Part shown: positions 9,009 through 26,008 of the stretch, one piece after another | Numbering within the stretch: position 1 is the first letter of the stretch | Layout of the letters: each line of letters begins with the position of its first letter | Assembly (NCBI RefSeq): GCF_014203225.1 | Contig: NZ_JACHIO010000029.1 | Span: 1 to 64,000, forward strand | Length of the DNA: 64,000 bases | Source of the DNA: Granulicella mallensis | Lineage (GTDB): Bacteria > Acidobacteriota > Terriglobia > Terriglobales > Acidobacteriaceae | Direction: 5' to 3' | Notes under the pieces: model-generated | The model's database searches: none | The model's input: the letters and a program-made list of their open reading frames with translations, nothing else | What the model was told of the DNA's origin: nothing | Translations under genes and position numbers: made by a program

Positions 9009-9638
9009 GGGCAGGGGCGCTCTATTGCTTTTCTCTTAGTTCTTTTTTCGCAATCGTTGCTGTCTTCTCTCTAGTGTCGTGAGTCGTTAACTCGTCAAAG
9101 AACCAGCGTTACCTCATAGCGCAAAGTGCAAACCGTGACGCTTCAGCGTCGCGGTGCGGAGGGAGCCGTAGCCTAAAGGCTACGGCTCCCTCCGTCTCCC
9201 TGATGCTGAAGCATCAGGGAATGCGCTTTGCGCTGTGCTGAACAGAACATCATTTGGGGACGCGGAGTCGAAGGATCTGTTTGTTGTTGCTTTTCTTGTT
9301 CGCGTGGGAGAGAACATTCAGTTCGACGTTTTTCGGCACGGTTGAAACCGTGCCCTTCCGGTTCTTGCTATAGCAGAGTATTTGCGCGCCAAGTGCGATG
9401 ATTCCATGATGTGCTCTAGTAAACCGGTTGTCTGAGTGGTCTCAACTTCAGTCAGGCAACAAATTAATAAATAGTTTGAGCTTGCAACTTCTCCAAATGT
9501 GCGCGTATTGTGGTGCCGCTTCGAGCTTCAACCTGTCCATGATTTGAACTTCATGGCAGCACCGAAGCGAGAGCGTTCAGTGTCCTGGGCCCGGGACGCT
9601 GCGCCGCACTGTCTCACCAATCCATTCAGGAGAAGCAC
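9009..9638. other. Intergenic region with palindromic repeats
   Basis: This 630-bp gap lies between uxs and the PL7 lyase gene. It holds the palindromic repeat at 9117-9234 and a short isolated hairpin at about 9334-9353 (GGCACGGTTGAAACCGTGCC). The remaining 280 bases before the lyase probably carry its promoter, but no convincing -35/-10 pair was identified. No protein-like reading frame was seen. Confidence 0.6.
9117..9234. repeat. Palindromic repeat, family A, copy 1
   Basis: The outer arms AGCGCAAAGTGCA and TGCGCTTTGCGCT enclose three hairpins. In order they are a short stem around GACGCTTCAGCGTC, a long stem GGAGGGAGCCGTAGCC-TAAA-GGCTACGGCTCCCTCC, and CCCTGATGCTGAAGCATCAGGG. The related element at 42845-43069 uses the same modules. 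Whether it is a mobile palindrome or a functional RNA is unknown. Confidence 0.8.
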
Positions 9639-10430
9639 ATGCAATCTGTCTTCGGAACTAAGGTCTCTGCACTCGAACCTGCAAAGCGCAGGCGTTCGTA
9701 CACTCGTCTCTTTCTTCTGCTAGGGGCAGCCGCGGCCATGCCCCTGTCTGTCTACGCTCTGAACCCGAGCGTGCCACCGGGAAGCAACTTCAATATGACC
9801 TATTGGGAGCTTCAGCTTCCTATCGGTTCTACTGGAGATCCCACGACCGAATCAAGCTCGGCGCTGCAGAACGGCTACGAGAATTTCTCGTACTTCTTCA
9901 CCGAGAGCGGCGATGGAGCGATGGTCTTCAAGGACCCAGGAGTTAACTGCGTCACGACGCCTAACTCCGCGCATTGCCGCACAGAGCTGCGTGAGGTAAA
10001 TCCCAGTGACGGCAGTCCCGCGAGCTGGAGCCCCAATGCGGCGACCAACCGTCTCAAGGCGACGCTCGCTGTCGAAAACGCTGGCGGCAAGACTGTTATT
10101 GGACAGATCCACATCGACGACAGCATCTCTTCCAAGCCTGTCTGCGAGCTGTACTACGACTCCAGTGGCAATATCAGCATTGGTGTTGAGCAGACCCGTT
10201 CCGGTGGCGATGAAGTGCTCACCTCACTCGGTAATGTCCCGGTCGGTACGCAGTTCAGCTACGAGATCGAGTACTCTGGCAACCTGCTGAAGGTTGCTAT
10301 CAACGGTAACTTCACAACTCTCAGTACCTTCTCGCTCGACGCTCCTAACAGCTATTTCAAAGCAGGCGATTATGGGCAGGATGCGGAAGCGTCCGATGTT
10401 CATTTCTTCGCTTTAACCATCGAGCACTAA
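9639..10430 (+). CDS. Secreted PL7-family polysaccharide lyase (alginate lyase-like)
   Basis: This 263-residue exported protein has an N-terminal basic region and hydrophobic segment (about 20-41, FLLLGAAAAMPLSVYA) read as a signal peptide. The three hallmark motifs of polysaccharide lyase family 7 are present: RTELRE, QIH (IGQIHIDD) and YFKAGDYGQ, which line the active cleft and supply the catalytic Arg, Gln, His and Tyr. The family cuts alginate or related uronic-acid polymers by beta-elimination. Lying beside genes for UDP-glucuronate and exopolysaccharide export, it may trim or release the cell's own uronate-containing polymer rather than feed on algal alginate. That role is an inference. 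Confidence 0.88.
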   Translation: MQSVFGTKVSALEPAKRRRSYTRLFLLLGAAAAMPLSVYALNPSVPPGSNFNMTYWELQLPIGSTGDPTTESSSALQNGYENFSYFFTESGDGAMVFKDPGVNCVTTPNSAHCRTELREVNPSDGSPASWSPNAATNRLKATLAVENAGGKTVIGQIHIDDSISSKPVCELYYDSSGNISIGVEQTRSGGDEVLTSLGNVPVGTQFSYEIEYSGNLLKVAINGNFTTLSTFSLDAPNSYFKAGDYGQDAEASDVHFFALTIEH

Positions 10431-10444
10431 AGTAAAAAGAAATA

Positions 10445-10591
10445 AAAAGACCTCGGGTCTAGAGCATTTTCCCTGTTGCTGGGAATCCGGAAACGGGCGT
10501 GCAGCGGCGTTTTCATTGGGGAAAACACCCATAAAGATCGAGGCCCCGCTCTACACCTACAGGGAAAATGCTCTAAAGGCCGAGGTCTTTT
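10445..10591. repeat. 114-bp structured repeat (family D, copy 1) inside a longer stem
   Basis: The core 10461-10574 is exactly 114 bp and begins and ends with the perfect inverted arms AGAGCATTTTCCCTGT and ACAGGGAAAATGCTCT. Inside is a smaller hairpin (GGCGTTTTC...GAAAACACC). A second pair of arms outside (AAAAGACCTCGG, 10445-10456; CCGAGGTCTTTT, 10580-10591) ends in a T run and could work as a terminator for the lyase gene 15-30 bases upstream. The core aligns without gaps to the reverse complement of 25577-25690. Confidence 0.85.
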
Positions 10592-10683
10592 ATTTGAGAT
10601 GTCTGTAACTGTTGTGTGTGAAATTCCGGCGTTCTCGCCATGGGATGCCGGTAAGAACTACAGATTGGTTGTCACACGGATAG

Positions 10684-10766
10684 GTCGGGCTTTCAGCCCT
10701 CTGTCTTATCTAACCCGGTAACCCAGGGCTTCGCCCTGGGCTGGGATATGTCGCTCCTTCGGGGCT
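10684..10766. repeat. Palindromic repeat, family B (partial)
   Basis: The modules are GTCGGGCTTTCAGCCCTC, then CCCAGGGCTTCGCCCTGGGC, then a shorter CTCCTTCGGGGC hairpin, in the same order as in the copies at 20973-21056 and 33407-33592. It lies at the 3' end of the minus-strand Wzi-like gene. Confidence 0.75.
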
Positions 10767-10787
10767 GTGAAATCCGCAATTTATCGA

Positions 10788-13022
10788 TCAACGCCCTGCG
10801 AGATTCGGCTCGGTGTGCAGCTTGGGGTGCCACGTAAGCTGCACTGCGATGGCCGTATCGTTTTGCGGGCCTGTGAGATATTGCGGTGGTCCGATGACAT
10901 CGAGAGGCACCCCGGGGACGACGAGAGGTACAGGGGCCTTCCAGCGCTCGTACTGCAGCCATGCGTTCAACTCAAGATCGTGCGGAAGCCGTTTTACGAC
11001 ATCGACCTTGAACTGGTTCTGTGTCGTTCCGCCGGGGATGAAGTCTTTCGGCGTCTTCTTGTTCAGATACTCAAGCTGCACCCACTCATTTCCGGAGAGA
11101 TGGTAGGTGAGCCACGCCTGACCGCCTTTGGCCTCGCGCCCAATCCAGTCACCCATGATGAAGCCTTTGTTGGTGTAGCCCTGGGGCTGTTGACCTTCGT
11201 AGTAATTGAACTGGCCGGTCAGACTACGCAGGGTAGAGGTATCGGTACTGACACCCTCGATGCGGAAGTCGAGCCTCGGCATATGGGGGAACTGGGAGAT
11301 GAAGACTCCAGGCCTGTAGGCAGCGCGGCGCGGGGCGCTGGGTGGGGTCACGTCGTCATGCGATTCGGAATCCGTATAAAGCGTGACGTATTTGCGCAGG
11401 TAGGGAAGACGCCAGGAGAAGTTGAAGGCAGAGAAGCGCGCTCCCGGATCGGCCGAGGAGTTTTTTTCCGGGACGGTCGTATCACTGATACTGAAGAAGC
11501 TTCTGAGGAAGGTGTGGATGGTGATAGGTTCGTGGCCCTCGCCACCCCAGATGACGGACCGTTGGAAGCCGATCTCGACATTTTTTGTGGGGCGGAACGA
11601 GAACATCTCCGAGTGGACCCACGGTGAGTTGTGATCGGTATGTCCTTTCAGAGATCCCACAAAGAAGTCGTAGCGTATGGGCCCCAGGAGGTCCGAAACC
11701 AGCGGTATGTGCAACGGTTCGACCCGATTGATGCGGAAGGAATAGATGTTTTCGGCGTTATTGCTCCAGGCCATAGCGCCGCCCATGCCGGGCCCCAGCC
11801 AGGCGTCGGATTTGCCGCCGGAGATCTCATGGCCAAGCACATGGAAGGAGAGGGCGGCTTCCTGTAGCCGGAAGGGATTTTGTGCGGCGATCGGGCCCGT
11901 GGGAATCGTCGCCTGGTTCAGATTGTAGTTGGCGAGGGCAATGCCGTTGTTGTCACAGCCTGAGCCAGGATAGGGAATCTCATCGATGCAGGAGAGTTCG
12001 CCTGTGAGAGCTGTGGAGTATCCGGCGCCGGAAGGAGCGTGCTGATACTCGCCGCGGATATAGAGCGAGAAGCGACCCATCTCGTTCACAGTGGAGAAGC
12101 CCGTGATGTTATTGAAGCCGGGCTCGTAGGGCCGGCCATAGTCGTTCACGATCGTCTGGCCCAGGTGGAAGCTGTCGCGCAGAGACTGCCCGCTGATGCC
12201 CAGGAACCGCGTGTAGGCGGTCTCAAGGCCGTAGACGCGGCCACGGGTAAAGTTTCCTCCTGGAACCTCTGCCGCCAGCTCTGCGTTTAGTTTGGCGAGG
12301 ATCTCGGTGGCCTGGTCGTTGCCGTCGGCCATGATCTCAGGGGTCGATTTCTCGAGCATGTGCAGCAGGCTGCGCCGCGTCCAGGGACGCATGGAGATAA
12401 ACGCTGAATCGAGGTAGCCCATGGAGTAGAGACGTAGCGCCATGGGATAGACCGGGCTGTCGACGGGGATGTAGGTCGAGCCCAGAGCGTCGATCACCTG
12501 TTTCCGTTTGGGAGGGGTGAGGAAGTCGTACGCCTCTATCGACGGCAGGGAGGCGACGGCGGCGGGTGCAGGCAGCGCGATCTCGACAGGGGCCTGAACG
12601 GTAGGGGCTTCAGAGGACGCTGCCGCAGGAACTGCAAACGGTTGATCGGGTGCCGGGACAGTCGAAGTCGGGACAGGGGCCGGGACCGTTGAGGCCGAGA
12701 CTGTTGGAACTGGGGAGGGCGAAGAAGGTACAGGAGCCGGTGTAACAGTTACGGGAGTGCTCGCTGATGCCGCAGGTACTGGAACGAGCGGCGTTGTTGC
12801 GGACGGATTCTGAGGAGCCGGTGTGGAGGGTTGCGGCTGGTCTCCAAGGTTCTTCACCGGGATCGGTGCAGGCATGGAAGGAAGGCTGCTTGCAGGAGCA
12901 GGGACTGGCACGGGCGCAACCGGGACAGACTGCGTTTGGGCGTGCGCGGAGGTGACTGCAATAAAAGCTATCAGCAGCCAGGCGAGCAGGCTCACCCGTT
13001 CCTGGAACCTTGGAAGAGACAT
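10788..13022 (-). CDS. Wzi-like capsule assembly outer-membrane protein
   Basis: The chosen ATG gives a 744-residue protein starting MSLPRFQERVSLLAWLLIAF, a good signal peptide ending near SAHAQ; an in-frame ATG at 13073 would add 17 residues before it. About residues 30-165 are low-complexity Pro/Ala/Val-rich sequence, possibly a periplasmic spacer. The rest resembles the Wzi capsule-assembly beta-barrel family (RPWTRRSLLHMLE, SDAWLGPGMGG, PHMPRLDFRIEGVSTD). Wzi proteins anchor capsule at the outer-membrane surface as lectin-like barrels. The link to the polysaccharide operon at 0-6.4 kb is inferred from proximity. Confidence 0.83.
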   Translation of the reverse strand: MSLPRFQERVSLLAWLLIAFIAVTSAHAQTQSVPVAPVPVPAPASSLPSMPAPIPVKNLGDQPQPSTPAPQNPSATTPLVPVPAASASTPVTVTPAPVPSSPSPVPTVSASTVPAPVPTSTVPAPDQPFAVPAAASSEAPTVQAPVEIALPAPAAVASLPSIEAYDFLTPPKRKQVIDALGSTYIPVDSPVYPMALRLYSMGYLDSAFISMRPWTRRSLLHMLEKSTPEIMADGNDQATEILAKLNAELAAEVPGGNFTRGRVYGLETAYTRFLGISGQSLRDSFHLGQTIVNDYGRPYEPGFNNITGFSTVNEMGRFSLYIRGEYQHAPSGAGYSTALTGELSCIDEIPYPGSGCDNNGIALANYNLNQATIPTGPIAAQNPFRLQEAALSFHVLGHEISGGKSDAWLGPGMGGAMAWSNNAENIYSFRINRVEPLHIPLVSDLLGPIRYDFFVGSLKGHTDHNSPWVHSEMFSFRPTKNVEIGFQRSVIWGGEGHEPITIHTFLRSFFSISDTTVPEKNSSADPGARFSAFNFSWRLPYLRKYVTLYTDSESHDDVTPPSAPRRAAYRPGVFISQFPHMPRLDFRIEGVSTDTSTLRSLTGQFNYYEGQQPQGYTNKGFIMGDWIGREAKGGQAWLTYHLSGNEWVQLEYLNKKTPKDFIPGGTTQNQFKVDVVKRLPHDLELNAWLQYERWKAPVPLVVPGVPLDVIGPPQYLTGPQNDTAIAVQLTWHPKLHTEPNLAGR

Positions 13023-13080
13023 GCTGTCAGTGTACTCGGAACGAACGAGTTTTCGGACTGAAGAAGGCTCCAACGAAGAT

Positions 13081-13827
13081 TCAGGCGCGCGGTTTCTTCG
13101 TCGGCTTTGCCGGGAATAGCCCGCGCGCCGCGAGGTAGCTCTCCATGCGGGCGATCGGCTGCATGGAGCGGCTCTGCTTCACGCCTTTGGGAGTCAGCAC
13201 GCTCCAGATCACGGCCGGGCCGTCGCCAACGCGGGCTCGGATGGCGGATTCCTGCACGACACGATAGACCGCAACCGCGTCTTCGCCATCGACTGACAGC
13301 ACGGGGAAGTGCAGCTTCTTGGCCAGCTTCGATACGGTCTGCCAGTTGAGCGCAGACGCTCCCTTACGGGCGGCGCGGCCTCCCGTGGTGTCTGAGCAGA
13401 CCAGCAGCAGCGGCAGACGGGCGAGATGGGCATACTCCAGGGCTGCGGCCCAGCCGGCTTCGGCGGAGCCCGCCGTGGCAAGCGCCATGACCATGCCATC
13501 CGAGCCTGCCGTCTGCAGGCCCAGCGCCGCGGCGGCACAGAGGGTCAGCCTCGATCCCCTGGGCAGACGGAGATCTCCCTCTGGCTTGCTCATCGACTTT
13601 CCGGTGGCAGTGGCATTCGGCCTGGGAAGAGGAGCAAGAGCTTCGACCGTAGCATCGGTACCTTCGCCGAAGAGCAGGTCTCCGGGCTGCAGATGGATCG
13701 TTGCAGCCGCCAGCAGCGCCTCACGCGCCGGGTTGTCTTTGCGACGGCGATCAAGCTCGTGGCAGCGCAACATCAGCGCGTGCAACTCTTTCAACCTGCG
13801 ATGGGGGAGGAGCGGATTTTCAGACAA
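13081..13827 (-). CDS. Degenerate pyruvate dehydrogenase E1-alpha-like protein
   Basis: About 248 residues from a TTG start (SENPLLPHRRLKELH...), chosen because GAGG lies 8 bases upstream and the homology begins here; an upstream ATG at 13932 would add 35 unmatched residues. The fold signature of thiamine-diphosphate E1-alpha subunits is recognisable (ELHALMLRCHELDRR, then AAALEYAHLARLPLLLVCSD). The cofactor motif is missing: where active enzymes have GDGATSEG followed by an NN pair, this protein has AGSAEAG and a SD pair. It is therefore probably not a working decarboxylase on its own. It lies downstream of aceE and 58 bases before the Wzi-like start on the same strand. Confidence 0.7.
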   Translation of the reverse strand: MSENPLLPHRRLKELHALMLRCHELDRRRKDNPAREALLAAATIHLQPGDLLFGEGTDATVEALAPLPRPNATATGKSMSKPEGDLRLPRGSRLTLCAAAALGLQTAGSDGMVMALATAGSAEAGWAAALEYAHLARLPLLLVCSDTTGGRAARKGASALNWQTVSKLAKKLHFPVLSVDGEDAVAVYRVVQESAIRARVGDGPAVIWSVLTPKGVKQSRSMQPIARMESYLAARGLFPAKPTKKPRA

Positions 13828-13934
13828 ACAGTAAGCCTCGTACGATCTAAAGTTGCTGTGGCTTTCAGAGTAGCAGCGGCCTTCAGGCAGGAAAAGCAGA
13901 CACGATATTTTGAGGGTTTCTGCCTGTGCCAAAC

Positions 13935-14003
13935 AAAAGGCCCAGGGCTAAAGCCCTTTCTTGCCGGGACTTGGTTCCGGGGCCTAAAGGCCCCGGCTAC
14001 GCC
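13935..14003. repeat. Palindromic repeat between aceE and the E1-alpha-like gene
   Basis: The hairpins are GGGCTAAAGCCC and CCGGGGCCTAAAGGCCCCGG. The first half (AAAAGGCCCAGGGCTAAAGCCC) closely matches 42961-42982, where the same module sits inside a family A element. Confidence 0.7.
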
Positions 14004-14051
14004 CAAAAGCAAAGGCAAGAGCAGTTATGAAATAGGTTCCAAGCAATGGCA

Positions 14052-16736
14052 CTAGGCGTGAGCGGCGCCTGAACCTTCCGTGTTCAAGCCGAGTTCCGCG
14101 AAGGCCTTCTCCGCTACCTTGGGTTTGACCACGCCTTCGCGAGCCAGCTTGGACAGCGCAGCGGCGACGATGGATTCGGCGTCGACCTCGAAGTGGCGAC
14201 GCAGGTGTTCGCGGTTGTCCGAGCGGCCGAAGCCGTCGGTGCCCAGCGAAACCAGGCGGGAGCCGAGCCACGGAGAGAGAGAGTCGGGCAGCGACTTCAT
14301 GTAATCGCTGGCGGCAACGATGGGGCCTGCGGCCTTGCCCAAAGCCTGCACGACGTAAGGGGTCTTCTCCTTCTCGGAGGGATGCAGGCGGTTGAAACGC
14401 TCGGTGTCGAGGCAGTCGCGGCGGAGTTCGTTGTAGCTGGTGACGCTCCAGACATCGGCGGCGATGTTGTACTTCTCGGCGAGAATCTGCTGTGCGCGGA
14501 CGGCCTCGTTGAGGATGGGGCCGGAGCCGAAGAGTTGAACCTGAGCGGTCTTCTCCGCAGCCTTGAACTTGTAGATGCCGCGCAGGATGCCCTCGCGAAT
14601 GCCCTCACCCTCGGGCATGGCGGGCATCGCGTAGTCCTCGTTGTACATCGTGATGTAGTAGTAGCAGTCTTCGCCAGCCTCATACATGCGGCGCAGGCCA
14701 TCCTGCAGGACTACGGCCATCTCGAAGGCGTAGGCGGGGTCGTAGGTGAGGCAGGTGGGGATCGTGCCGGAGATTACCGGCGAGTGGCCGTCCTGATGCT
14801 GCAGTCCTTCGCCGAGCATGGTGGTGCGGCCGGCGGTGCCTCCCATCAGGAAGCCTTTTCCGCGTGAGTCCGCGAAGGCCCAGGCCATGTCACCGATGCG
14901 CTGGAATCCGAACATCGAGTAGTACATGTAGAACGGCACCATCGGGATCTTGTAGTTGGTGTAGGCCGTTCCGGCAGCGGTGAAGCTGGCCATGGAGCCG
15001 GCTTCCGTGATGCCTTCTTCGAGGATCTGGCCACTCTTCTCTTCGCGATACTTGAGCAGCATGTCGGAGTCGTGGGGGGTGTACTTCTGGCCCTCGGGAG
15101 CGTAGATGCCGACCTGAGAGATTACGGACTCCATGCCGAAGGTGCGGCCTTCGTCGGGGACGATGGGCACGATCAGCTTGCCGATCGTAGGCTCCTTGAG
15201 CATGGCACGCAGCATGCCGCCGACAAAGGCGGTGGTGGTGGAGACAGCGCGTCCCTTGGAGCCGCCCATCCACTCCTTGAAGAACTCGATCTTGGGTGCG
15301 ACGAACGTGGACTTCGGCACTTCCCGGGCAGGCAGATAGCCGCCGAGTGTCGAGCGCCGTGACTGCATGTACTGGATGGCAGGATCGCTGGGCTCGGGGC
15401 GATAGAAGGTGGCGTCTTTGGCTGCGGCTTCGGGGATTGGAATGTCGAAGCGTTGAACGAAGGCAGCGAGGCCCTCGTCGGTGAGCTTCTTCTCTGAGTG
15501 GGTTGCGTTGCGTGCCTGTGCGGCGGCGATGCCGTATCCCTTGACGGTCTTGGCGAGGATGACGGTGGGACCGCCCTTGTGCTCCAGGGCGCGCTTGTAG
15601 GCGTTGTAGATCTTTGCGGGATCGTGGCCGCCGCGGTGCAGCTTGCCAAGTTCCTCGTCGGTCTTGTCTTCGACGAGCTTCAGCAGCTCCGGATACTTGC
15701 CGAAGAAGTGCTGGCGCAGATACGTACCGCCCTTGGCCTTATAGGCCTGGAAGTCCCCGTCGACGCACTCTTCCATGCGCTTGAGCAGCAGACCCTGGTG
15801 GTCGCGCTCGAAGAGCTCGTCCCAGTCCGAGCCCCAGATGACCTTGATGACGTTCCAACCAGCGCCGCGGAACATGCCTTCGAGCTCGTCGATGATGCGC
15901 TTGTTGCCGCGGACAGGGCCGTCGAGACGCTGCAGGTTGCAGTTGACGACGAAGATCAGGTTGTCGAGGTGCTCGCGGGAGCCGAGTGAGATCGCGCCGA
16001 GGGTGTCGACCTCGTCCGTCTCACCGTCGCCGACGAAGGCCCAGATCTTGCGATCGGTCTTCTCGATGAGATTGCGGTTCTCGAGGTACTTCATGAAGCG
16101 GGCCTGGTAGATGGCGTTCAGCGGGCCGATGCCCATCGACACTGTGGGGAATTGCCAGAAGTCCTGCATGAGCCAGGGATGAGGGTAGCTCGAGAGGCCG
16201 GGTTCGCCGCGCAGTTCGTGGCGGAAGTTCTTGAGGCGGGCATCGTCGAAGCGGCCTTCGAGGTAGGCGCGCGCGTAGACGCCGGGGGAGGCATGGCCCT
16301 GGAAGTAGATGAAGTCGCCGGGCTGTTCGCCGTTGGCGCTGGGGTACTTGGCGTGGAAGAAGTGATTGAACCCGACTTCGAGCAGCGTGGCGAGTGAGGA
16401 GTAGGTGGAGATGTGTCCGCCGATGCCGGCGTCGTATTTGTTCTGCTTGTGCACCATCGCCATGGCGTTCCAGCGGATGAGCGCTTCGACGCGGCGTTCG
16501 AGCGAGCGGTCGCCGGGGTAGGGGACTTCGTCGTGCTTGGGGATGGTGTTGTGGTAAGGCGTCGTGACATCGCCGGTGGCGGAGACTCCCGCCTCGCGGG
16601 CGCGAGTGCGGAGAGCGGAGAGCAACGCGGCGCCTTGTTCCCAGTCCTGGGCGACGACTTCGTCGAATGCTTCAATCCACTCTGCGACCTCTGCGGTCAT
16701 GTCTGTCTTTACGGCCTCATCGACGTTTGTCGGCAT
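14052..16736 (-). CDS. aceE: Pyruvate dehydrogenase E1 component, homodimeric type
   Basis: This 894-residue enzyme is the thiamine-diphosphate-dependent E1 of the pyruvate dehydrogenase complex, which decarboxylates pyruvate and reductively acetylates the lipoyl group of E2. The length matches gamma-proteobacterial AceE (about 887). Visible marks are IGGHISTYSSLATLLEVGFNHFF near residue 105, the ThDP/Mg motif FVGDGETDEVDTLG near 231, KTVKGYG near 408, and the C-terminal GTDGFGRSDNREHLRRHFEVD. No E2 or E3 gene is in the window. The downstream E1-alpha-like gene on the same strand belongs to the heterodimeric E1 family, an odd pairing. Confidence 0.96.
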   Translation of the reverse strand: MPTNVDEAVKTDMTAEVAEWIEAFDEVVAQDWEQGAALLSALRTRAREAGVSATGDVTTPYHNTIPKHDEVPYPGDRSLERRVEALIRWNAMAMVHKQNKYDAGIGGHISTYSSLATLLEVGFNHFFHAKYPSANGEQPGDFIYFQGHASPGVYARAYLEGRFDDARLKNFRHELRGEPGLSSYPHPWLMQDFWQFPTVSMGIGPLNAIYQARFMKYLENRNLIEKTDRKIWAFVGDGETDEVDTLGAISLGSREHLDNLIFVVNCNLQRLDGPVRGNKRIIDELEGMFRGAGWNVIKVIWGSDWDELFERDHQGLLLKRMEECVDGDFQAYKAKGGTYLRQHFFGKYPELLKLVEDKTDEELGKLHRGGHDPAKIYNAYKRALEHKGGPTVILAKTVKGYGIAAAQARNATHSEKKLTDEGLAAFVQRFDIPIPEAAAKDATFYRPEPSDPAIQYMQSRRSTLGGYLPAREVPKSTFVAPKIEFFKEWMGGSKGRAVSTTTAFVGGMLRAMLKEPTIGKLIVPIVPDEGRTFGMESVISQVGIYAPEGQKYTPHDSDMLLKYREEKSGQILEEGITEAGSMASFTAAGTAYTNYKIPMVPFYMYYSMFGFQRIGDMAWAFADSRGKGFLMGGTAGRTTMLGEGLQHQDGHSPVISGTIPTCLTYDPAYAFEMAVVLQDGLRRMYEAGEDCYYYITMYNEDYAMPAMPEGEGIREGILRGIYKFKAAEKTAQVQLFGSGPILNEAVRAQQILAEKYNIAADVWSVTSYNELRRDCLDTERFNRLHPSEKEKTPYVVQALGKAAGPIVAASDYMKSLPDSLSPWLGSRLVSLGTDGFGRSDNREHLRRHFEVDAESIVAAALSKLAREGVVKPKVAEKAFAELGLNTEGSGAAHA

Positions 16737-17193
16737 TTATACAGTCCCCTTGTATGCAAACTTCCACTGTTACGATAAATGTTCCTTATGGGGATGCGCT
16801 AGGGAGTGGGGTCCTGGCTGGGCTGGAAGAGCCGGTATTCGCGCGTTGGCTTTAGTTTTGAAGGGGGGCTTCAGCCCCGCCGTATAAGGCACTTCCACAA
16901 AAAACGGCTTCAGCCGCAGAGGGAACGATGCTGGAGATCGCAATGCATCCCCAGCGACGAGCGCGATGGGCTTGAGAACCTTGCCTGCATCAACGCAATC
17001 TCACTTCTTTGCGTCAGGGGCAGTACCGGTTCTGTGGGGGAGAAGAGTGGGTTTGCACTGACATCGTCCCCTCCGTGGCTAAAGCCACTATCGGTGGGAG
17101 ACCTTTGACGGCGGGGCTGAAGCCCCGCCCCTTCAAAGCAAAACTGGGTTGAAACTCTGCCTTCAAAGATAAAACCCGGGCTATTGGCTGTTT
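16737..17193. other. Intergenic region with palindromic repeats (family C)
   Basis: The 457 bp between the aceE start and the argJ stop contain several short stems with GCTnnAGC-like loops: GGGGCTTCAGCCCC at about 16865-16881, CGGCTTCAGCCG near 16902, GTGGCTAAAGCCAC near 17073, and GGCGGGGCTGAAGCCCCGCC near 17110-17130. The aceE promoter should lie at the left end. No protein-like frame was seen. Confidence 0.65.
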
Positions 17194-18405
17194 CTAGGTT
17201 GAGTAGTCGGCGTTGATGCTGACGTACTCGTGGGTGAGGTCGCAGGTGATGAACTTCGACTTACCCTCGGCCTGACCGAGATCGAGATGGATGGTGTATT
17301 CACGTTCGCTCATGGCGGCGTGGGTAGCGTCCTCGTCGAAGGCTGCGTCCCGTGTGCCATGGGCGAAGACCGGCAGGCCGCCGATGGTGACAGTGACGGT
17401 CGCGGGGTCGAAGGCAACACCGGCCCGGCCAGCGGCGGCGAGCAGACGGCCCCAGTTCGGATCGGCGCTGGACCAGGCTGTCTTGCAGAGCGGCGAGGTG
17501 GCGATGGTGCGCGCGATCTGCTGGGCTTCGGCACTGGAGCGTGCGCCGGTGATCTCCAGCGTGACGACGTGGGTGACGCCTTCGCCGTCGTCGACGATGG
17601 CATGGGCGAGAGAGTCACAGACACTCCTGAGGGCTGCTTCAAAGGCGGGGACGGCTTCGCCTTTGGCTTCCACTTCGCTCTTTCCGCTGGCGAGCAGCAG
17701 CACGGTGTCATTGGTAGACATGTCGCCGTCGATCGAGATCGAGTTGAAGCTGCCTTCAACCGCCGGGGTCAGCATCGCGGCAAGATGTTCTGAGCACACC
17801 GCGAGGTCGGTGAAGAGATAGACCAGCATCGTCGCGTGCGGCACGAGCTGCGGGCCGATCATGCCCGCGCCCTTGGCGCAGCCGAAGAGATTGACCGTGC
17901 GGCCCTCGATCTCGAAGCTTGCATGAGCGACTTTAAGCTTGGTGTCGGTGGTCAGGATCGCGGTGGCGAAGGCCTCGGCGTGCTCGGGTGTGTCGCCGAG
18001 CGCGTCCTTTGCGGCGGGGATGGCGGCGATGAGTTTTTCTACAGGCAGCGGAACGCCAATAATGCCGGTGGAGGAGGGGAAGATCTCGTCGAAGACACAG
18101 CCGAACTGCTCGGCGACGGCGATGCAGCTCTTGCGGCAGGCGTCGATGCCGGGCTCTCCGGTGGCGCAGTTGGCATTGCCCGCGTTGACGAGGACTGCCG
18201 AGACGCGGCCGCCGGTTGCGGCCAGGTGTCTGCGCCCGACGGTCACGGGGGCGGCGACGACCTGATTGCTGGTGAACATGGCAGCTGCGCTGGCTCCGCC
18301 GTCGCAGACCGCGAGTGCGACGTCGGGCTTGCCGCTGGCCTTGATGCCGGCTTTGACGGAGGACCAGCGGAAGCCGAGGGGGAGGGGATGGGAGATCGTG
18401 CTCAT
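17194..18405 (-). CDS. argJ: Bifunctional glutamate N-acetyltransferase / N-acetylglutamate synthase
   Basis: ArgJ transfers acetyl from N-acetylornithine to glutamate in cyclic arginine biosynthesis, and in bifunctional forms also uses acetyl-CoA. The ATG chosen gives 403 residues; another ATG lies 9 bases upstream. The self-cleavage site is visible as PHATMLVYLFTD, where the Thr (residue 192) becomes the N-terminal nucleophile of the beta chain, preceded by KGAGMIGPQL. Other marks are VNAGNANCATG, SSTGIIGVPL, and the C-terminal DLTHEYVSINADYST. No other arginine biosynthesis gene is adjacent. Confidence 0.95.
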   Translation of the reverse strand: MSTISHPLPLGFRWSSVKAGIKASGKPDVALAVCDGGASAAAMFTSNQVVAAPVTVGRRHLAATGGRVSAVLVNAGNANCATGEPGIDACRKSCIAVAEQFGCVFDEIFPSSTGIIGVPLPVEKLIAAIPAAKDALGDTPEHAEAFATAILTTDTKLKVAHASFEIEGRTVNLFGCAKGAGMIGPQLVPHATMLVYLFTDLAVCSEHLAAMLTPAVEGSFNSISIDGDMSTNDTVLLLASGKSEVEAKGEAVPAFEAALRSVCDSLAHAIVDDGEGVTHVVTLEITGARSSAEAQQIARTIATSPLCKTAWSSADPNWGRLLAAAGRAGVAFDPATVTVTIGGLPVFAHGTRDAAFDEDATHAAMSEREYTIHLDLGQAEGKSKFITCDLTHEYVSINADYST

Positions 18406-18596
18406 CGATATCACTGTATCAAGGGCGATGGGTGTAATTGGTAACAGTCATCACGAGCATAGAAGCACGAAGGCATGGCAAGGTTTCTGAGCCAGGAGTC
18501 GTGGAACTGGTTCGGTAAGAGCAACGAACGACGAGGTGGCGAGCGACGAGGAGAACAGGGCTCCGGCGTATACTCATTCGATAACACCGGGAATAG

Positions 18597-20123
<1,527 letters not shown>

Positions 20124-20167
20124 TGAGGCAGAGTGTAGAGATTTAGAGCGTAGAGCGTAGAGAAACC

Positions 20168-20197
20168 AAAGGCCCGCGAGGCATATCGCGGGCCTTT
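20168..20197. terminator. Bidirectional rho-independent terminator
   Basis: The perfect stem AAAGGCCCGCGA-GGCATA-TCGCGGGCCTTT lies between the convergent thiC and TonB-like genes. It is followed by GATTTTG on the plus strand and, read on the minus strand, by a T-rich flank. Confidence 0.85.
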
Positions 20198-20226
20198 GAT
20201 TTTGTGCGGGATCGAAAGGGCACTCC

Positions 20227-20871
20227 TCAGCCGTGCTCGTAGTGGAAGAGCAGCTCCTGCTCGCTGTCTACCGGAACGCCGTTGCGTGTTGCCGGCTGGA
20301 AGGTCCACTGCTGGATTACTGCGAGGACTGTCTCGTCGATGCCGTGTCCGAGACCGCGAGCCAGCGATGACTTCGCGATTCGTCCTGTCTTATCGATGAC
20401 CACGTCCACGACCACATCCCCATGCGTACCCGAGGGGAGCTGTGACAGGTCCGGCTTTGGCGAGGGATGGACAACCACCAGGGCGAGGGTCGTATCGCCC
20501 TCTCCGAGGGCATCGGCTCCCGTAGAGGAGCCCGCGCTCGTCGAGGCGGAGGTTGGGGCCGGTGTAACCGGGGTTGGGGGCGGCATGGGTGTGGGACGCG
20601 GAATTACCGGCTTGTTCGTGGGCAGTTTGGGTGTCTTGAGCGCGGAGGGCGGAGCGCTGATGCCGGGGGAGTAGGTGAGGAGCAATCGGTGGCCGCTGGG
20701 ATCGCCGGGCAGTTGAACGGGTTTGAGGTGCGGTTGACGGCTATAAAACAGCACGCCGAGAACAGACAGGTGAAACGCGATCGACGCTACCGCCCAATAG
20801 CTGTGCCGACGGCCCTGGAGCGGCAGTTCACCCTGTTGCAGCAGTGTCTTGCTGTACGGTTTCGTGTCCAT
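20227..20871 (-). CDS. TonB-family energy transducer
   Basis: This 214-residue protein has the TonB layout. A cytoplasmic N-terminus of about 25 residues is followed by one membrane helix (about 26-44, WAVASIAFHLSVLGVLFY). A Pro/Thr/Ser-rich periplasmic linker spans about 70-120 (IPRPTPMPPPTPVTPAPT). The C-terminal TonB domain contains GDVVVDVVIDKTGRIAKSSLARGLGHGIDE and AVIQQWTFQPATRNGVPV. Such proteins pass proton-motive-force energy from ExbBD to outer-membrane transporters. No ExbB, ExbD or receptor gene is adjacent, so its partner is unknown. Confidence 0.88.
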   Translation of the reverse strand: MDTKPYSKTLLQQGELPLQGRRHSYWAVASIAFHLSVLGVLFYSRQPHLKPVQLPGDPSGHRLLLTYSPGISAPPSALKTPKLPTNKPVIPRPTPMPPPTPVTPAPTSASTSAGSSTGADALGEGDTTLALVVVHPSPKPDLSQLPSGTHGDVVVDVVIDKTGRIAKSSLARGLGHGIDETVLAVIQQWTFQPATRNGVPVDSEQELLFHYEHG

Positions 20872-20972
20872 TCCACCCCTCGAAGGTAGGGTACACCTGA
20901 CGGCAGTGTTTGTAAGACTTCAATAACAGCAGATTGTCAGCAGAAAATCAGGGAAAAACTGGGCAATAACAT

Positions 20973-21056
20973 AGGGCCAACGGCCTGGCTCATCCCAGCC
21001 TGGGGCAAAGCCCCAGGCTGGTGGCGGTGCTGATGAGTCGGGCTTTCAGCCCTCTA
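20973..21056. repeat. Palindromic repeat, family B
   Basis: The modules are AGGGCCAACGGCCTGGCTCAT, CCAGCCTGGGGCAAAGCCCCAGGCTGG, and ATGAGTCGGGCTTTCAGCCCTCT. They are the same three, in the same order, as in the copies at 33407-33592 and, inverted and degraded, at 10684-10766. It lies in the gap upstream of the TonB-like gene. Confidence 0.8.
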
Positions 21057-21088
21057 TAACTAGACACGGTTTCAGCGCTACGTGGCTT

Positions 21089-23245
21089 TCAGAGCCCTGC
21101 GGCTCCTTCGAGAATCGCCGCTGAGCGATTCAGTGCAGCGGCCAAGGCGTCTAGCTGTGCCTGTGTGCGGGCATTGTCGGCCTCGTCGATGCCTTCGTTG
21201 ACGCCGGGGATGACTACGGCTGCGTAGCCGGTGAACTCGCCTGGAGCATAGATGGTGTGCTTGAACCAAGGGCGTTTCGGAAGGCCTGCGTCGTTGAGCA
21301 GGGCGGATTCGGCGTTCCGGAGGGCTGCGTTCAACGGAGCGGCATCGACGCCCTGGGTGGGCGCGGATTGCAGCCGGTAGGCACGCTCGCCGGCTGCGGC
21401 AAAGCGTTTGGCTGCCGTGGCGGCTGCGCTGAAGTCCACCTGCATCTTTGCTTCTGTGGCACGTGTCCTTGCTTCGGTGAGATAGCTTCCGATCTCGCTG
21501 CCATAGAGCTTGTAGTCGTAGGGCAGGACGTCGGCGTCGGCCATGTGGAGCACTTCAAGACCGAAGACACGGGCCTGCTGCTGTTCGTAGACGAAGGTGG
21601 GATCGGCGTTGCGGATGAACCAGTTGTAGTCGTCGAAGGTCGAGTGATAGACGCCGTAAGGGCCTTCCGAACCGATGTCAGTGGAGGGAACGCCGAGATG
21701 CTGGATGAAGGGCGTGTAGTCGGAGCCGGAGCCCAGCGTGCCGATCTGTACGTCGTCAGAGCCTGCTTCATGTCTGTTGTGGGCGGGGGCTTTGCGACGG
21801 ACGGCACCCTCATGCTGGTCTTTCAGCCATTGATCGTAGACGGTGCCGCCCTTGGGACTGGGAACTTCGCGCGTGACCTCGCGAACGAACTCCTTGAGCG
21901 ACGGCACAGCTGAGGCATCGAAGTTTGGGCCGGCGACGCCGACATCGGTGTTGAAGTAGGCGACGGCGTGGGAGAGTTCGGCGGCGTGCATCTCGGCCCA
22001 CTCGGTCGAGCCCATCAGGCCCTCTTCCTCTGCATCCCAGCTTCCGAAGACGATTGTCCGCTTCGGCTTCCAACCCTGCTTGAGCAGTACGCCTAAACCA
22101 TGCACGGTTTCGAGCATCGCCGCTGTGCCGCTGTTGGGGTCGACCGCGCCGTAGACCCAGGCGTCACGATGATTGCCCGCGACGACCCAGGCATTGGGAT
22201 CGTCGCCGGGGATCTTGCCGATGACGTCCCAGATGGTGCGCAGCTTGTAGTCCTGCTCAAGATGCATGTGCACCTTCACCGATGCCGTTCCGCCGAGGTG
22301 ATAGGTGAAGGGAAGCGCTCCCTGCCACTCACGCGGCGAGAGCGGCCCATCGAGATGCTGCAGGATAGGCGCGGCGTCCTGATACGACAGCGGATTGGAG
22401 GGGATCGACGGCTGATTCATCTTGGCCGGATCGGTGATGCGCTGCGAATCGGGCAGGTCGGGGGTCGAGGCGATGCCGGGAGTTTCGGGATCGCCCGGAT
22501 AGAGGGGAAGGAACTGCACGCTGCCACGCTGCACGGCAGAGGACGGACGGAACGGCCCGCGAGGATAGACATCGCCGCGCGTGTAGCCATCGTCTGCCGG
22601 GTCGGAGTAGATCAGCACGCCCTTGGCACCGCGCTGCTGAGCGATATAAACCTTGACGCCGCGGAAGTTCGCTCCGTATCGCACGAGCACGATCTTGTCT
22701 TTGACGCTGATGTTCAGGGTGTCGAGCTTCTTGAAGTCTTCAAGCGTGCCGTAGTTGGCGTAGACGACCTCGGCGGTGACATCGCCAGAGGCCGAGGAGC
22801 CGTTGAAGGCGGGCAGGATGCGGGGATCGTCCTGGAAGGAGTCGCCGCCGTACTCCTTGGAATCGACGTGTTCCGGGGTAGGTCCGGACATGAGCTTTTT
22901 GCCCTGGGCGTCAAAGGCTTCGATCTCGATCTTGACCGGTTTATTCAGCAGCACGCGGAAGGGCACGATCTCGGTCTGCAGGCCTGCGGCTTTGAACTTT
23001 TCGGCGACGTAGAGCGCGGTCTTGTGGTCTTCGGGAGAGCTGGCCCAGTGGGGTTCGGCGGTCAGCGTCTTCAGGTGTTCGCCGGCAAGTTTCGCATCGG
23101 GCACAGGCATGAAAGCGGCGTCCCACTTGGCCTGCTGGGAAAAGTCGGCGTAGCCGAAGACCCTGGGCGTCTGGGCAAGTGCCACGGTGGAGAAGAGTGC
23201 AACGGCGCTGGAGACGAGAACGAGGTTCGACAGGGAGCGATTCAC
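21089..23245 (-). CDS. M28-family zinc peptidase (glutamate carboxypeptidase II-like)
   Basis: This 718-residue exported protein has a signal peptide at about 1-24 (LVLVSSAVALFSTVALAQ). A protease-associated domain follows at about 155-250 (KDKIVLVRYGANFRGVKVY). The M28 catalytic domain has zinc ligands in AGNHRDAWVYGAVDPNSGTA (His, Asp), the general-base pair in SWDAEEEGLMGSTEWAE, a following Asp in FNTDVG, and GSGSDYTPFIQHLGVPS. A transferrin-receptor-like dimerisation domain ends the protein. This architecture is that of PSMA/NAALADase, which release C-terminal glutamate or other acidic residues. In soil acidobacteria such enzymes likely act in the periplasm on peptides; the substrate is not known. 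Confidence 0.92.
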   Translation of the reverse strand: MNRSLSNLVLVSSAVALFSTVALAQTPRVFGYADFSQQAKWDAAFMPVPDAKLAGEHLKTLTAEPHWASSPEDHKTALYVAEKFKAAGLQTEIVPFRVLLNKPVKIEIEAFDAQGKKLMSGPTPEHVDSKEYGGDSFQDDPRILPAFNGSSASGDVTAEVVYANYGTLEDFKKLDTLNISVKDKIVLVRYGANFRGVKVYIAQQRGAKGVLIYSDPADDGYTRGDVYPRGPFRPSSAVQRGSVQFLPLYPGDPETPGIASTPDLPDSQRITDPAKMNQPSIPSNPLSYQDAAPILQHLDGPLSPREWQGALPFTYHLGGTASVKVHMHLEQDYKLRTIWDVIGKIPGDDPNAWVVAGNHRDAWVYGAVDPNSGTAAMLETVHGLGVLLKQGWKPKRTIVFGSWDAEEEGLMGSTEWAEMHAAELSHAVAYFNTDVGVAGPNFDASAVPSLKEFVREVTREVPSPKGGTVYDQWLKDQHEGAVRRKAPAHNRHEAGSDDVQIGTLGSGSDYTPFIQHLGVPSTDIGSEGPYGVYHSTFDDYNWFIRNADPTFVYEQQQARVFGLEVLHMADADVLPYDYKLYGSEIGSYLTEARTRATEAKMQVDFSAAATAAKRFAAAGERAYRLQSAPTQGVDAAPLNAALRNAESALLNDAGLPKRPWFKHTIYAPGEFTGYAAVVIPGVNEGIDEADNARTQAQLDALAAALNRSAAILEGAAGL

Positions 23246-23346
23246 AATGTGTCCTTCTCTGGTGTGAGCTTGCCTTGTTGGCGTGGCTGGGGTCTTACCG
23301 CTGGTCTTGTGGGGCGTGTTTCATTTTAGGCAGCATACACGAAGGT

Positions 23347-23408
23347 CCAGGGCTGAAGCCCTTGCGTTTAGGGGGATTGCAGCGGGCTATAGCCCGCTGC
23401 AATCCCCC
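23347..23408. repeat. Short palindromic repeats, family C type
   Basis: Two stems in tandem, AGGGCTGAAGCCCT and GATTGCAGCGGGCTATAGCCCGCTGCAATC, lie between the mscL stop and the peptidase start on the minus strand. The second is a near-perfect 30-base palindrome and could act as a terminator for mscL. Confidence 0.7.
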
Positions 23409-23436
23409 CTCTGCCTGTCTCCGAGATGCTTCAGAC

Positions 23437-23841
23437 TCAGGCCGTGACCGGCTGTCCGCAGAACTTGCAGCGGGAAGCCGCAAGCGGAATCTCGCTCAGG
23501 CACTGGGGGCAGGTCTTGGTCGAGGGCTCGGCTGCAGGCGGGGGATTGAACTTCTTCATCAGGTATTGCGTGGGCAGCACCATGAAGAAATAGACCACGG
23601 AGGCGATGAGCAGGAAGTTGATGATCGCCGTGAAGAAGGTGCCGTACTTGATCTCGCCGCCATGAGCGTGGGCGACGAGGTAGTCGAAGTTTGGCTTGCC
23701 GATGATCGCGCCCAACAAGGGGTTGATGATGTTGGCGGTCAGAGCGGTGACGATCGAGGTGAAGGCAGCGCCTATGATGACGGCCACCGCCAGGTCCATT
23801 ACATTGCCGCGCAAAATGAAATCGCGAAATCCTTTGAACAT
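23437..23841 (-). CDS. mscL: Large-conductance mechanosensitive channel with zinc-ribbon tail
   Basis: MscL opens under membrane tension to release solutes during hypo-osmotic shock. The 134-residue protein has the conserved N-terminal amphipathic helix and first transmembrane segment (MFKGFRDFILRGNVMDLAVAVIIGAAF). A periplasmic loop and the second segment (FFTAIINFLLIASVVYFFMV) follow. The C-terminal 28 residues carry CPQC...CKFC, a zinc-ribbon-like tail absent from the E. coli protein but seen in some MscL relatives. The gene is single and divergent from moaDE. Confidence 0.95.
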   Translation of the reverse strand: MFKGFRDFILRGNVMDLAVAVIIGAAFTSIVTALTANIINPLLGAIIGKPNFDYLVAHAHGGEIKYGTFFTAIINFLLIASVVYFFMVLPTQYLMKKFNPPPAAEPSTKTCPQCLSEIPLAASRCKFCGQPVTA

Positions 23842-23917
23842 GAGTCCTCCGTGGGTTCGGTTTTAGGGTAAAGATTTCCCGGCGAGTATACCGCAACGAC
23901 TCGGGTATTCTTTGTAG

Positions 23918-24625
23918 ATGCGTCCTGCCACCATGCGCGTACACCTGATTTCGTTCGGTCCCCTGAAGACGATATTCCCTGAGGGGGGAGTGTGGCGAGA
24001 ACTGCGTGTGGGGGAATCGGTCGCGGGTCTGCTGGCTTTGCTGCGCCGCGAGGGTGTGGTGGCGGAGGAGATGCTGCGCTCGGCAGCCGTTGCGGTGAAC
24101 CATGAATATGCGGCGGAAGGGCATAGCCTCTGCGATGGCGACGAGGTGGCGATTCTGCCGCCTGTAAGCGGAGGTTCTGGAGATCTTGTCCAACTGGTGA
24201 GGGAGCCGATGGACGCGGTGGCCATCACGAACAGGATCAAGGCTGGGACAGACGGTGCGGTATGCGTCTTCGACGGCATTGTGCGCGATAACACCAAAGG
24301 CCGCGCGACCCTGCATCTCGACTATGAGGCCTATGAGGAGATGGCGCTGCGCCAGATGCACGAACTGCGCGAGCAGGCGATCGCGAAGTTCGGCGTGCGC
24401 GAGGTGGCAGTGGTGCATCGCCTGGGGCGGTTGGTGGTTGGTGAGACGAGCGTGCTGATCGTTGTGGCTTCGGCCCATCGTGGAGCGGCGTTCGACGCCT
24501 GCCGCTGGCTCATCGACACGCTCAAGAAGACGGTGCCGATCTGGAAGCGGGAGCAGTTTGTCGACGGGGCCGTATGGGCTGACGGCGAGCCGTTTCCTCC
24601 GGACATTGCAGAGGCCAAACAATGA
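23918..24625 (+). CDS. MoaD-MoaE fused molybdopterin synthase
   Basis: This 235-residue protein joins both subunits of molybdopterin synthase, which adds two sulfurs to precursor Z to give the dithiolene. Residues 6-86 are a MoaD ubiquitin-like domain ending in the sulfur-carrier GG (VAILPPVSGG, Gly85-Gly86). Residues 95-235 are MoaE, with VFDGIVRDNTKGR, YEAYEEMA, VVHRLGRLVVGE, VASAHRGAAFDACRWLID and the active-site lysines in LKKTVPIWKREQF. In the fusion the GG is not at a free C-terminus, so cleavage after Gly86 would be needed, as reported for the fused MoaX of Mycobacterium tuberculosis. It overlaps the next gene by 4 bases. Confidence 0.92.
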   Translation: MRPATMRVHLISFGPLKTIFPEGGVWRELRVGESVAGLLALLRREGVVAEEMLRSAAVAVNHEYAAEGHSLCDGDEVAILPPVSGGSGDLVQLVREPMDAVAITNRIKAGTDGAVCVFDGIVRDNTKGRATLHLDYEAYEEMALRQMHELREQAIAKFGVREVAVVHRLGRLVVGETSVLIVVASAHRGAAFDACRWLIDTLKKTVPIWKREQFVDGAVWADGEPFPPDIAEAKQ

Positions 24626-25578
24626 GGTTGGCTGCCGTCGCGCTGGCTGCTGTGTGGTTGCCCGCCCTGGCAATGTCCCAGACGCCTGCCCAGCAGCCTG
24701 CGCCCATTGAGCGTCATGACCCTGAGATTCCAACCATTCATGTGGAGAGCCGGCTGGTCAGTGTGGCCCTCAATGTCGTGGATGAGCAGGGTGCTCCAGT
24801 GCCGGATTTGAGCGCTGCCGACTTTGAGGTGGCGGAAGATGGCAAGCCCCAGCGCATCGCCAACTTTGACCGCGAATCGACCACACCGCTGGAGATCGTG
24901 CTTGCCATCGACGCCAGCGAGAGCGTCTTCAACGATGAGCACCTGGAGCGCGAGGCCGCGAAGAAGTTCATGGCGTCGCTGCTGCGCAAACAGGACCAGA
25001 TCGACCTGATGGACTTTGCTGACGACGTCGATGAACTTGTCTCCTTCACCAGTGACGTGCAGAAGATCGACAGCGGCCTGGGACGGATTCATCACGGCGA
25101 TGCCACGGCGTTGTATGACGCGGTCTATCTTGCGAGCCAGCGATTGGGTGAGACGCCTTCGAATGGGGGGCAGCGCCGCGTTCTTGTGCTTATCACCGAT
25201 GGAGAAAATACGACGCATCACGGGAGCTATGACGCTGCTTTGGAGCAGGCGCAGCGTGCCGGAGCGATGATCTATGCGCTGATTATCGTGCCGGTATCGG
25301 CTGATGCCGGGCGCAATACCGGCGGGGAGCATGCGCTGATCCAGTTGGCCCGCGACACCGGCGGCAAGTACTACTACGTCGAGGACAAGCACGATCTCAC
25401 GCCGGCGTTTCAGCATGTTTCGGACGATCTGCGGACGCAGTACACGGTGGGCTATTACGCGCCCCAGAAGGCTCTCGGCAGGGATAATCTGCGGCATATT
25501 CAGCTGCAATTGAAGGATCCGGCACTGCGTGCCCGCTATACGCTGCGCTACCGAACGTCCTATTATGCGAACCGTTAG
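24622..25578 (+). CDS. Secreted VWFA-related domain protein (acidobacterial type)
   Basis: This 318-residue protein has a signal peptide (about 1-19, LAAVALAAVWLPALAMSQ). The phylum-typical module VESRLVSVALNVVDEQGAPVPDLSAADFEV follows. The von Willebrand A domain has the MIDAS metal site DASES (IVLAIDASESVF), a conserved Thr region in ALYDAVYLAS and VLVLITDGENTT. The end, TQYTVGYYAPQKA, is also typical of this large acidobacterial family. The proteins probably bind ligands in the periplasm or at the surface, but no activity is known. The ATG overlaps the moaDE stop (ATGA), so the two are coupled, though a functional link is not evident. Confidence 0.88.
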   Translation: MRLAAVALAAVWLPALAMSQTPAQQPAPIERHDPEIPTIHVESRLVSVALNVVDEQGAPVPDLSAADFEVAEDGKPQRIANFDRESTTPLEIVLAIDASESVFNDEHLEREAAKKFMASLLRKQDQIDLMDFADDVDELVSFTSDVQKIDSGLGRIHHGDATALYDAVYLASQRLGETPSNGGQRRVLVLITDGENTTHHGSYDAALEQAQRAGAMIYALIIVPVSADAGRNTGGEHALIQLARDTGGKYYYVEDKHDLTPAFQHVSDDLRTQYTVGYYAPQKALGRDNLRHIQLQLKDPALRARYTLRYRTSYYANR

Positions 25579-25690
25579 CGCAAATCTCCTGTAGGTGTAT
25601 CGCGAAACCACGACGCTTATGGCCGTTTTTCTCCAGAAAAAACGGCACTGCACGCCCGATTCAACTTCCCGGCAACAGGAGATTTGCTCT
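25577..25690. repeat. 114-bp structured repeat (family D, copy 2, inverted)
   Basis: This element starts at the stop codon of the VWA gene. Its arms AGCGCAAATCTCCTGT and ACAGGAGATTTGCTCT pair almost perfectly, and the inner hairpin is GCCGTTTTT...AAAAACGGC. Its reverse complement aligns without gaps to 10461-10574. Both stems differ between the two copies, yet pairing is kept in each. Confidence 0.85.
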
Positions 25691-25717
25691 AGAGTGGTTC
25701 GCCGTACAATCAAAGGT

Positions 25718-26008
25718 ATGGCGACGACGAAAAAGCGGCACAAGGGACTACCTGCGGGAGAGACGGGACAGGAGGCGCTTTACCTGAAATCGCTCAGCGA
25801 GCGACAGGTTCCGGTCTCCGTCAAGCTGCGCGACGGCGAGGTCGTCAATGGCTGGATCGAATACTTCGACGACATGATGGTGCGGCTCACGCGCGAAGGC
25901 AAGCCGAATCTCTTCATCTACAAGGCGCAGATCCGCACGATTACCGAGAGTGCCGGTGCAAGCACACGCCGCAGCGGCAATCGCGTAGCCGCAGCGGCAA
26001 TCGCGTAG
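25718..26008 (+). CDS. Hfq-like Sm-fold RNA-binding protein
   Basis: The ATG (MATTKKRHKGLPAG) gives 96 residues; the open frame extends upstream only through the repeat element and is not likely coding. Sm1 is seen as VPVSVKLRDGEVVNGWIEYFDD and Sm2 as LFIYKAQIRTI, where classical Hfq has VYKHAI. The key His of Sm2 is therefore Ala here. Hfq hexamers help small RNAs pair with mRNAs; whether this divergent form does so is not known. The last residues come from a 20-bp tandem duplication (25968-26007) that changed the reading frame and stop. Confidence 0.75.
   Translation: MATTKKRHKGLPAGETGQEALYLKSLSERQVPVSVKLRDGEVVNGWIEYFDDMMVRLTREGKPNLFIYKAQIRTITESAGASTRRSGNRVAAAAIA
25968..26007. repeat. 20-bp tandem duplication at the 3' end of the Hfq-like gene
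   Basis: The unit GCCGCAGCGGCAATCGCGTA occurs twice in a row, followed by a partial third copy. As 20 is not a multiple of 3, the second copy is read in another frame and stops at its internal TAG. With a single unit the protein would end RSGNRVAAAAN. Confidence 0.9.

Follow-up and report, generated by a model that had tools for sequence, protein, structure and literature searches.

Does a short, self-complementary repeat lying next to stop codons owe its structure to selection on an RNA, or is it mobile DNA whose two ends must stay alike? The question is raised by a stretch of 64,000 nt of Granulicella mallensis (contig NZ_JACHIO010000029.1; hereafter the window), in which a sequence-only reading had described a structured repeat of 114 bp and proposed either an RNA (terminator, attenuator or small RNA) or a mobile palindrome with ends kept complementary. 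The second half of that proposal is the one that holds, and the RNA option is not needed to explain the data. With a probability that we put at about 0.93, the element is a miniature inverted-repeat transposable element (MITE) of the IS630 type, that is, a non-autonomous mobile DNA and not a structured RNA.

The element and its dispersal

Both sequences are present in the window, and the shared blocks and paired differences in the outer stem are as first described. The limits of the unit, on the other hand, have to be redrawn, since the element proper spans 112 bp and the length of 114 takes in one base of each flanking TA (Table 1). The gapless match of 114 to 114 positions is a coincidence, because two offsetting 1-bp indels separate the copies in an alignment of 27 copies. 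As deduced from the alignment, the terminal inverted repeats are some 15 bp long (GAGCAWWTYYCCTGT); their pairing is perfect in copy 1 and has one mismatch in copy 2. On the strand originally read, both copies fold better than all of 200 dinucleotide shuffles (z -5.2 and -4.0). The two copies had also been placed directly after a stop codon or within 31 bases of one, a description that is accurate for copy 1, about 30 nt past the TAA of a gene ending at 10430, and that for copy 2 becomes a location inside a TAG stop. Copy 1 sits within a terminator loop following an alginate-lyase gene, and an uninterrupted terminator-like hairpin follows the orthologous gene in genome G002. Copy 2 directly precedes an Hfq-like gene (25718-26008, encoding a 96-aa protein), the called start of which lies about 26 nt past the element.

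Table 1. Coordinates of the two copies and of associated features in the window
Feature	Positions	Strand	Basis or remark
Copy 1, element 10462-10573 with flanking TAs (10460-10461 / 10574-10575)	10460..10575	+	Alignment, genome search
Copy 2, element 25578-25689 with flanking TAs (25576-25577 / 25690-25691)	25576..25691	-	Alignment; empty site in G002
Copy 1, left terminal inverted repeat	10462..10476	+	Paired with 10559-10573
Copy 1, right terminal inverted repeat	10559..10573	+	Agrees with each of the two best IS630 ends at 21/29 positions
Copy 1, inner hairpin	10506..10529	+	GGCGTTTTC / ATTGGG loop / GAAAACACC; arms across 175 distinct copies
Host intrinsic terminator, outside the element	10445..10591	+	AAAAGACCTCGG ... 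CCGAGGTCTTTT; copy 1 in loop
TAG stop of VWA-domain gene (24622-25578)	25576..25578	+	TA is the target; G is now the end base of the element

The repeat had been reported as present twice, but the wider search of its own genome and of related ones, which had been proposed as a check, reveals a dispersed family. A BLAST search of copy 1 against the 6.47-Mb genome to which the window belongs (G000) returns 56 rows, of which some 40 represent copies or part-copies and most others 16-base echoes of the palindrome, while a covariance model (R1) built from the 27 aligned copies yields 82 rows that reduce to 52 distinct places, as counted from the listing, plus reverse-strand echoes. Copy 1 and four further genomic copies show no difference over 114 bp, and the flanks of the copies look unrelated (31 flanks listed). 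A pattern describing the ends matches this genome 48 times on the forward and 48 times on the reverse strand, as against 0 and 1 for a reversed control pattern, which excludes chance. Under strict filters, R1 finds matches in 24 of 61 genomes (own genome included): 22 of the 28 in the genus, one of nine in other genera of the family, one of 14 in the rest of the order, with a marginal E value of 9e-4, and none of ten elsewhere in the class. Several genomes contribute dozens of rows, reverse-strand echoes included; with a maximum of 61 candidates scored per genome, the copy numbers are capped, and the stricter filters of the multi-genome search may lose weak copies.

Scanning genome contigs for the inner-hairpin pattern recovers 77 stretches from Granulicella, Terriglobus albidus, Bryocella elongata, Edaphobacter lichenicola and unnamed Acidobacteria, Acidobacteriales and Acidobacteriaceae, together with a single stretch labelled as Pseudomonadota. 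We take the latter for a binning error, since its contig name includes FK5, the tag of a sample that also yielded a rich carrier. Carriage by plasmids or phages was considered and rejected, blastn with copy 1 finding nothing in either; so was carriage by viruses, as viral contigs contain 0 matches to the pattern. Altogether 192 copies were collected, a second collecting search having aligned 150 of its 163 matches.

A few copies depart from the standard arrangement. One in the window's own genome (L206; G000:C12:99989-100110) is rearranged, an inverted piece of the element standing in place of its first half; in Terriglobus albidus (L153:1810-2040) two copies stand head to tail with one common TA; and in the FK5.bin108 MAG (L141:2875-3988) a TumE-like toxin gene and a gene of the HVO_A0114 family lie between two inverted copies spaced by about 0.9 kb, as in a composite element with a toxin-antitoxin pair as its cargo. 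The window holds other repeats as well. At gathering scores, Rfam reports no family at either copy of the element, and one tRNA and two matches to Acido-Lenti-1 (RF01687; 10722-10766 and 33548-33592) elsewhere in the window. The stretch around 10722-10766 has many further occurrences in G002, G010, G027 and other genomes, which makes the Acido-Lenti-1 'RNA' another sequence with the behaviour of a dispersed repeat, and the stretch at 9317-9389 recurs in at least 19 places of related genomes, mostly over 30-60 nt.

Target sites, ends and a possible transposase

An exact TA stands at both outer ends of 134 of the 192 collected copies, and 176 of them measure 114-116 nt with the TAs counted; in the remaining 58 one end or both depart from an exact TA, which we attribute to decay. 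The clearest empty site is that of copy 2, which is absent from G002: here the flanks are 92-94% identical and meet in ...GCGAACCGTTAGAGCAGTTCGCC... with a single TA, which implies that the TA is duplicated on insertion. A more diverged empty site is found in G010 for another copy (L003), with flanks 71-81% identical. At a further locus (L005) the stop codon of the host gene consists of TA plus the G of the element, and the orthologues in G010 and G001 end in the same residue followed by TGA and TAA, respectively; the far flank of this locus is not conserved in either genome. For copy 1, the six genomes searched hold no clean empty site, and its flanks are separated by other DNA in G002.

Across copies, the bases that precede the left and the right TA vary independently of each other (Fisher p 0.56), and so do those that follow them (Fisher p 1.0). 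The duplication is therefore of TA only, and the independence of the neighbouring bases rules out a duplication of 4 bp of the form YTAR. YTAR is nonetheless the prevailing target: in 133 copies the TA is mostly preceded by C (74) or T (52) and followed by G (93) or A (17). The placement is thus not random, since it follows YTAR targets and, as discussed below, the 3' ends of genes. Only eight sites are common to the window's genome (52 copies) and G002 (35 copies), and none of the five identical copies is among them, which suggests recent movement of the element.

The right end of copy 1, read inward together with the bases beyond the terminal repeat (TAGAGCATTTTCCCTGTAGGTGTAG), resembles the ends of IS630-family elements of the genus. 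The agreement reaches 21 of 29 positions for an end in G011 (L225) and for a remnant in the window's own genome (L231), and ranges from 11 to 19 of 29 for seven other IS630 ends, the poorest being one from G013 (L228, 11/29). The motif TGTAG occupies positions 21-25 in four of the nine IS ends and likewise in the element. In a null set of 50,607 TA-anchored 29-mers, which still included uncollected ends of the element, 11 reach 21 matches; inspection identifies them as the two IS ends themselves and such uncollected element ends.

A span of 112 bp is too short to encode a transposase. In the window's genome we find one fragment of an IS630-type (DDE_3) transposase, shortly behind which lies an end reading TAGAGCATTTTC inward; searches with PF13358 detect no intact IS630 transposase in this genome or in G002, and no DDE_3 match at all in G002 (a single contig), G010, G023 or G027. 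G002 has dozens of copies nonetheless, and the transposase end fragment of G011 is matched in only eight of 28 genomes of the genus. G013 carries a TA-flanked IS630 unit of about 1,030 bp (L234:703-1732) with ends TAGATCATTTTC / TAGATAATTTTC and two overlapping frames, the second of which contains the DDE_3 domain. An autonomous copy with the same ends was sought in the window's genome in 16 stretches around unpaired or odd end matches and discarded as a candidate, none of these stretches having, at the distance expected for an IS, an opposite partner end with three mismatches or fewer. We infer from the likeness of the ends that IS630 transposases of the genus would move the element in trans, by cut and paste. 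Under such a mechanism, a transposase made elsewhere would bind both matching ends, cut the element out and paste it into a TA, preferably within YTAR, the target TA being duplicated in the process; the need for both ends to suit a single transposase would keep the arms paired, and insertions into stop codons would be tolerated where the TA and a first base G restore TAG.

Fold, stop codons and the readings weighed

The compensatory changes noted in the outer stem are real, and over 175 distinct copies (effective number 65.9, in a ranking that ignores kinship) they are concentrated in the terminal repeats: these supply the four strongest covarying column pairs, the fifth belonging to the inner hairpin (pair 46-66). 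Among the top 22 pairs, eight are terminal-repeat pairs and 13 fall in no helix, which indicates a high background of correlation. At positions 2-16, 2225 of 2625 cells are Watson-Crick, as compared to a mean of 1713 with partners shuffled. Such covariation of the ends is to be expected if one transposase must recognise both. Selection on an RNA strand predicts, in addition, more mismatches of the G-U type on the selected strand than on the other. The counts for the strand originally read and its complement are 63 and 79 at positions 3-15, 119 and 87 once the outermost positions 2 and 16 are included (binomial p 0.03, with rows that are not independent), and 42 and 43 in the inner hairpin; neither strand is consistently the richer in mismatches of the wobble type. 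The inner hairpin, which had been said to differ between copies while staying paired, does so across the 175 distinct copies, its arms changing together. Its good preservation makes a structural role in DNA or RNA possible.

The association with stop codons was analysed with insertion sites modelled as empty and with genes called by a codon-usage script trained on the window; to be included, a copy had to measure at least 100 nt and have at least 600 nt of flank, and common sites were counted once, which reduces the 192 copies to 183. The 76 insertions of the window's genome and G002 comprise 41 in a stop codon, 32 intergenic and three coding, and 611 control YTAR sites at the same loci divide into 48, 312 and 251. 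Among non-coding sites, the element is thus exactly in a stop codon in 41 of 73 cases, against 48 of 360 controls, with an odds ratio of 8.3 for stop versus intergenic sites (p 5e-14) and of 3.5 for stop sites versus those 1-60 nt downstream (p 0.001). When a score for the target sequence is entered as a covariate and the controls comprise every non-coding TA site of these loci, the logit is 2.54 for stop codons (bootstrap interval 1.92-3.43) and 1.13 for sites 1-60 nt downstream. In other genomes, 88 copies, scored with the window-trained model and hence excluded from the main test, divide into 29 stop, 48 intergenic and 11 coding. The element is antisense to the gene at 50 of 74 stop sites and sense at 24, in a count that takes common sites twice (antisense in 16 of 27 in the window's genome, 13 of 18 in G002 and 21 of 29 in other genomes).

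Part of the excess at stops follows from the target itself, because the YTAR sites CTAG and TTAG contain TAG, and since the element usually starts with G, TA plus G rebuilds TAG and leaves the protein unchanged. It is likely that the excess results from the YTAR target, the rebuilt stop and the purging of insertions elsewhere. The antisense excess at stops is not accounted for by the MITE model. Both copies in the window lie within small host inverted repeats, and targeting of hairpin loops was considered in this regard and rejected: a flanking stem of at least six pairs accompanies 15% of the 73 insertions and 13% of the 360 controls. For stop sites alone the figures are 15% of 41 and 4% of 48, with an equal mean stem length (3.98 and 3.98, p 0.39).

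These observations bear on several other explanations. A structured RNA (terminator, attenuator or sRNA) with a selected fold and spread by ordinary duplication would account for the low folding energy, the covarying pairs and the many copies at gene 3' ends, and could claim the antisense majority at stops, which is a strand-dependent feature, as well as the G-U excess obtained when positions 2 and 16 are counted. We nevertheless deem it very improbable. No G-U excess is seen in the hairpin, nor in the arms without those two positions, a third of the stop-site copies (24 of 74) lie in the sense orientation, Rfam assigns no family at gathering score, and the element has inserted precisely, flanked by TA, into empty sites. 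As a terminator, the long outer stem lacks a following T-run; the single match of a terminator scan at copy 1 lies outside the element body (mean of 0.5 in shuffles), and of two near copy 2 (mean of 0.4) one is inside, but none of these matches is the outer stem. Even less credence can be given to a REP/REPIN-type palindrome moved by a Y1 (RAYT) transposase: the short palindrome, the many copies and their mostly non-coding location would fit, but the length of 112 bp, the terminal repeats and the duplicated TA do not, and the ends match those of IS630, a DDE-type element.

Two further proposals accept mobility and concern what became of the copies at stops. The hairpin placed at a stop codon might serve as the 3' end of the mRNA (stability, RNase block or termination), in which case the MITE would be partly domesticated. 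The odds ratio of 8.3 over YTAR controls, its persistence after correction for target sequence, the excess over sites just downstream and the orientation bias of 50 to 24 argue for such a role. On the other side, two close genomes have only eight sites in common, a third of the stop-codon copies are oppositely oriented, and target preference with purging of harmful insertions can yield much of the pattern; on balance, we regard domestication as unlikely. It is similarly doubtful, if slightly less so, that the family has specialised on stops as a safe landing site, with ends that rebuild the stop (TA + GAGC = TAG) and add an immediate 3' hairpin, preferably antisense. Were this true, transposition would rewire mRNA 3' ends across a bacterial genus while leaving the proteins unchanged. 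Stop-codon targeting by an IS630-type MITE does not appear among the literature matches listed.

The identification as an IS630-type MITE explains a recurrent 'structured repeat' of Acidobacteriaceae genomes that might be mistaken for a regulatory RNA, and it provides a clear case in which covariation can arise from transposon ends without selection on RNA. The enrichment at stop codons is measurable and can be tested, as a question of site preference by the transposase versus selection.

Relation to known systems

The element combines the hallmarks of a MITE, being a short dispersed unit of less than 200 bp with terminal inverted repeats, TA duplication and IS630-like ends. It adds a new family, from the Acidobacteriaceae, to a known kind of element, the IS630-type MITE, and none of the literature matches listed describes a MITE of this kind in that family. 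Excerpts on REP elements define them as palindromes of 20-40 bp tagged by GTAG/CGTC, from which an element of 112 bp with TA duplication differs. Correia/NEMIS and ERIC have ends that probably differ from those of the element. They are nonetheless small bacterial repeats with TA ends and terminal inverted repeats, like the element, and give rise to stable stem-loop transcripts, according to passages of PMC2229807. IS630 and ISY100, of the Tc1-mariner family, likewise duplicate a TA target on insertion, as stated in excerpts of PMC2170065. Both encode a transposase, in contrast to an element of only 112 bp. A paper of 1991 reportedly described a preference for TA within CTAG.

With regard to stop codons, a partial parallel is offered by the BOX repeats of pneumococcus, which, in passages of PMC3049150, supply the stop codon of 36 annotated genes, truncation not being strongly evidenced there; BOX is a modular repeat, unlike the element. 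A close counterpart is RUP, the repeat unit of pneumococcus, which excerpts of PMC2229807 and PMC3049150 describe as having about 107 bp, TA ends and terminal repeats hybridised in the fold, as in the element, and as resembling in its terminal repeats a resident IS630 element proposed to move it in trans. The host of RUP belongs to another phylum, and the likeness described here is one of features. Taken together, the duplication of TA, the YTAR targets and the IS630-like ends point to an IS630-type MITE comparable to RUP.
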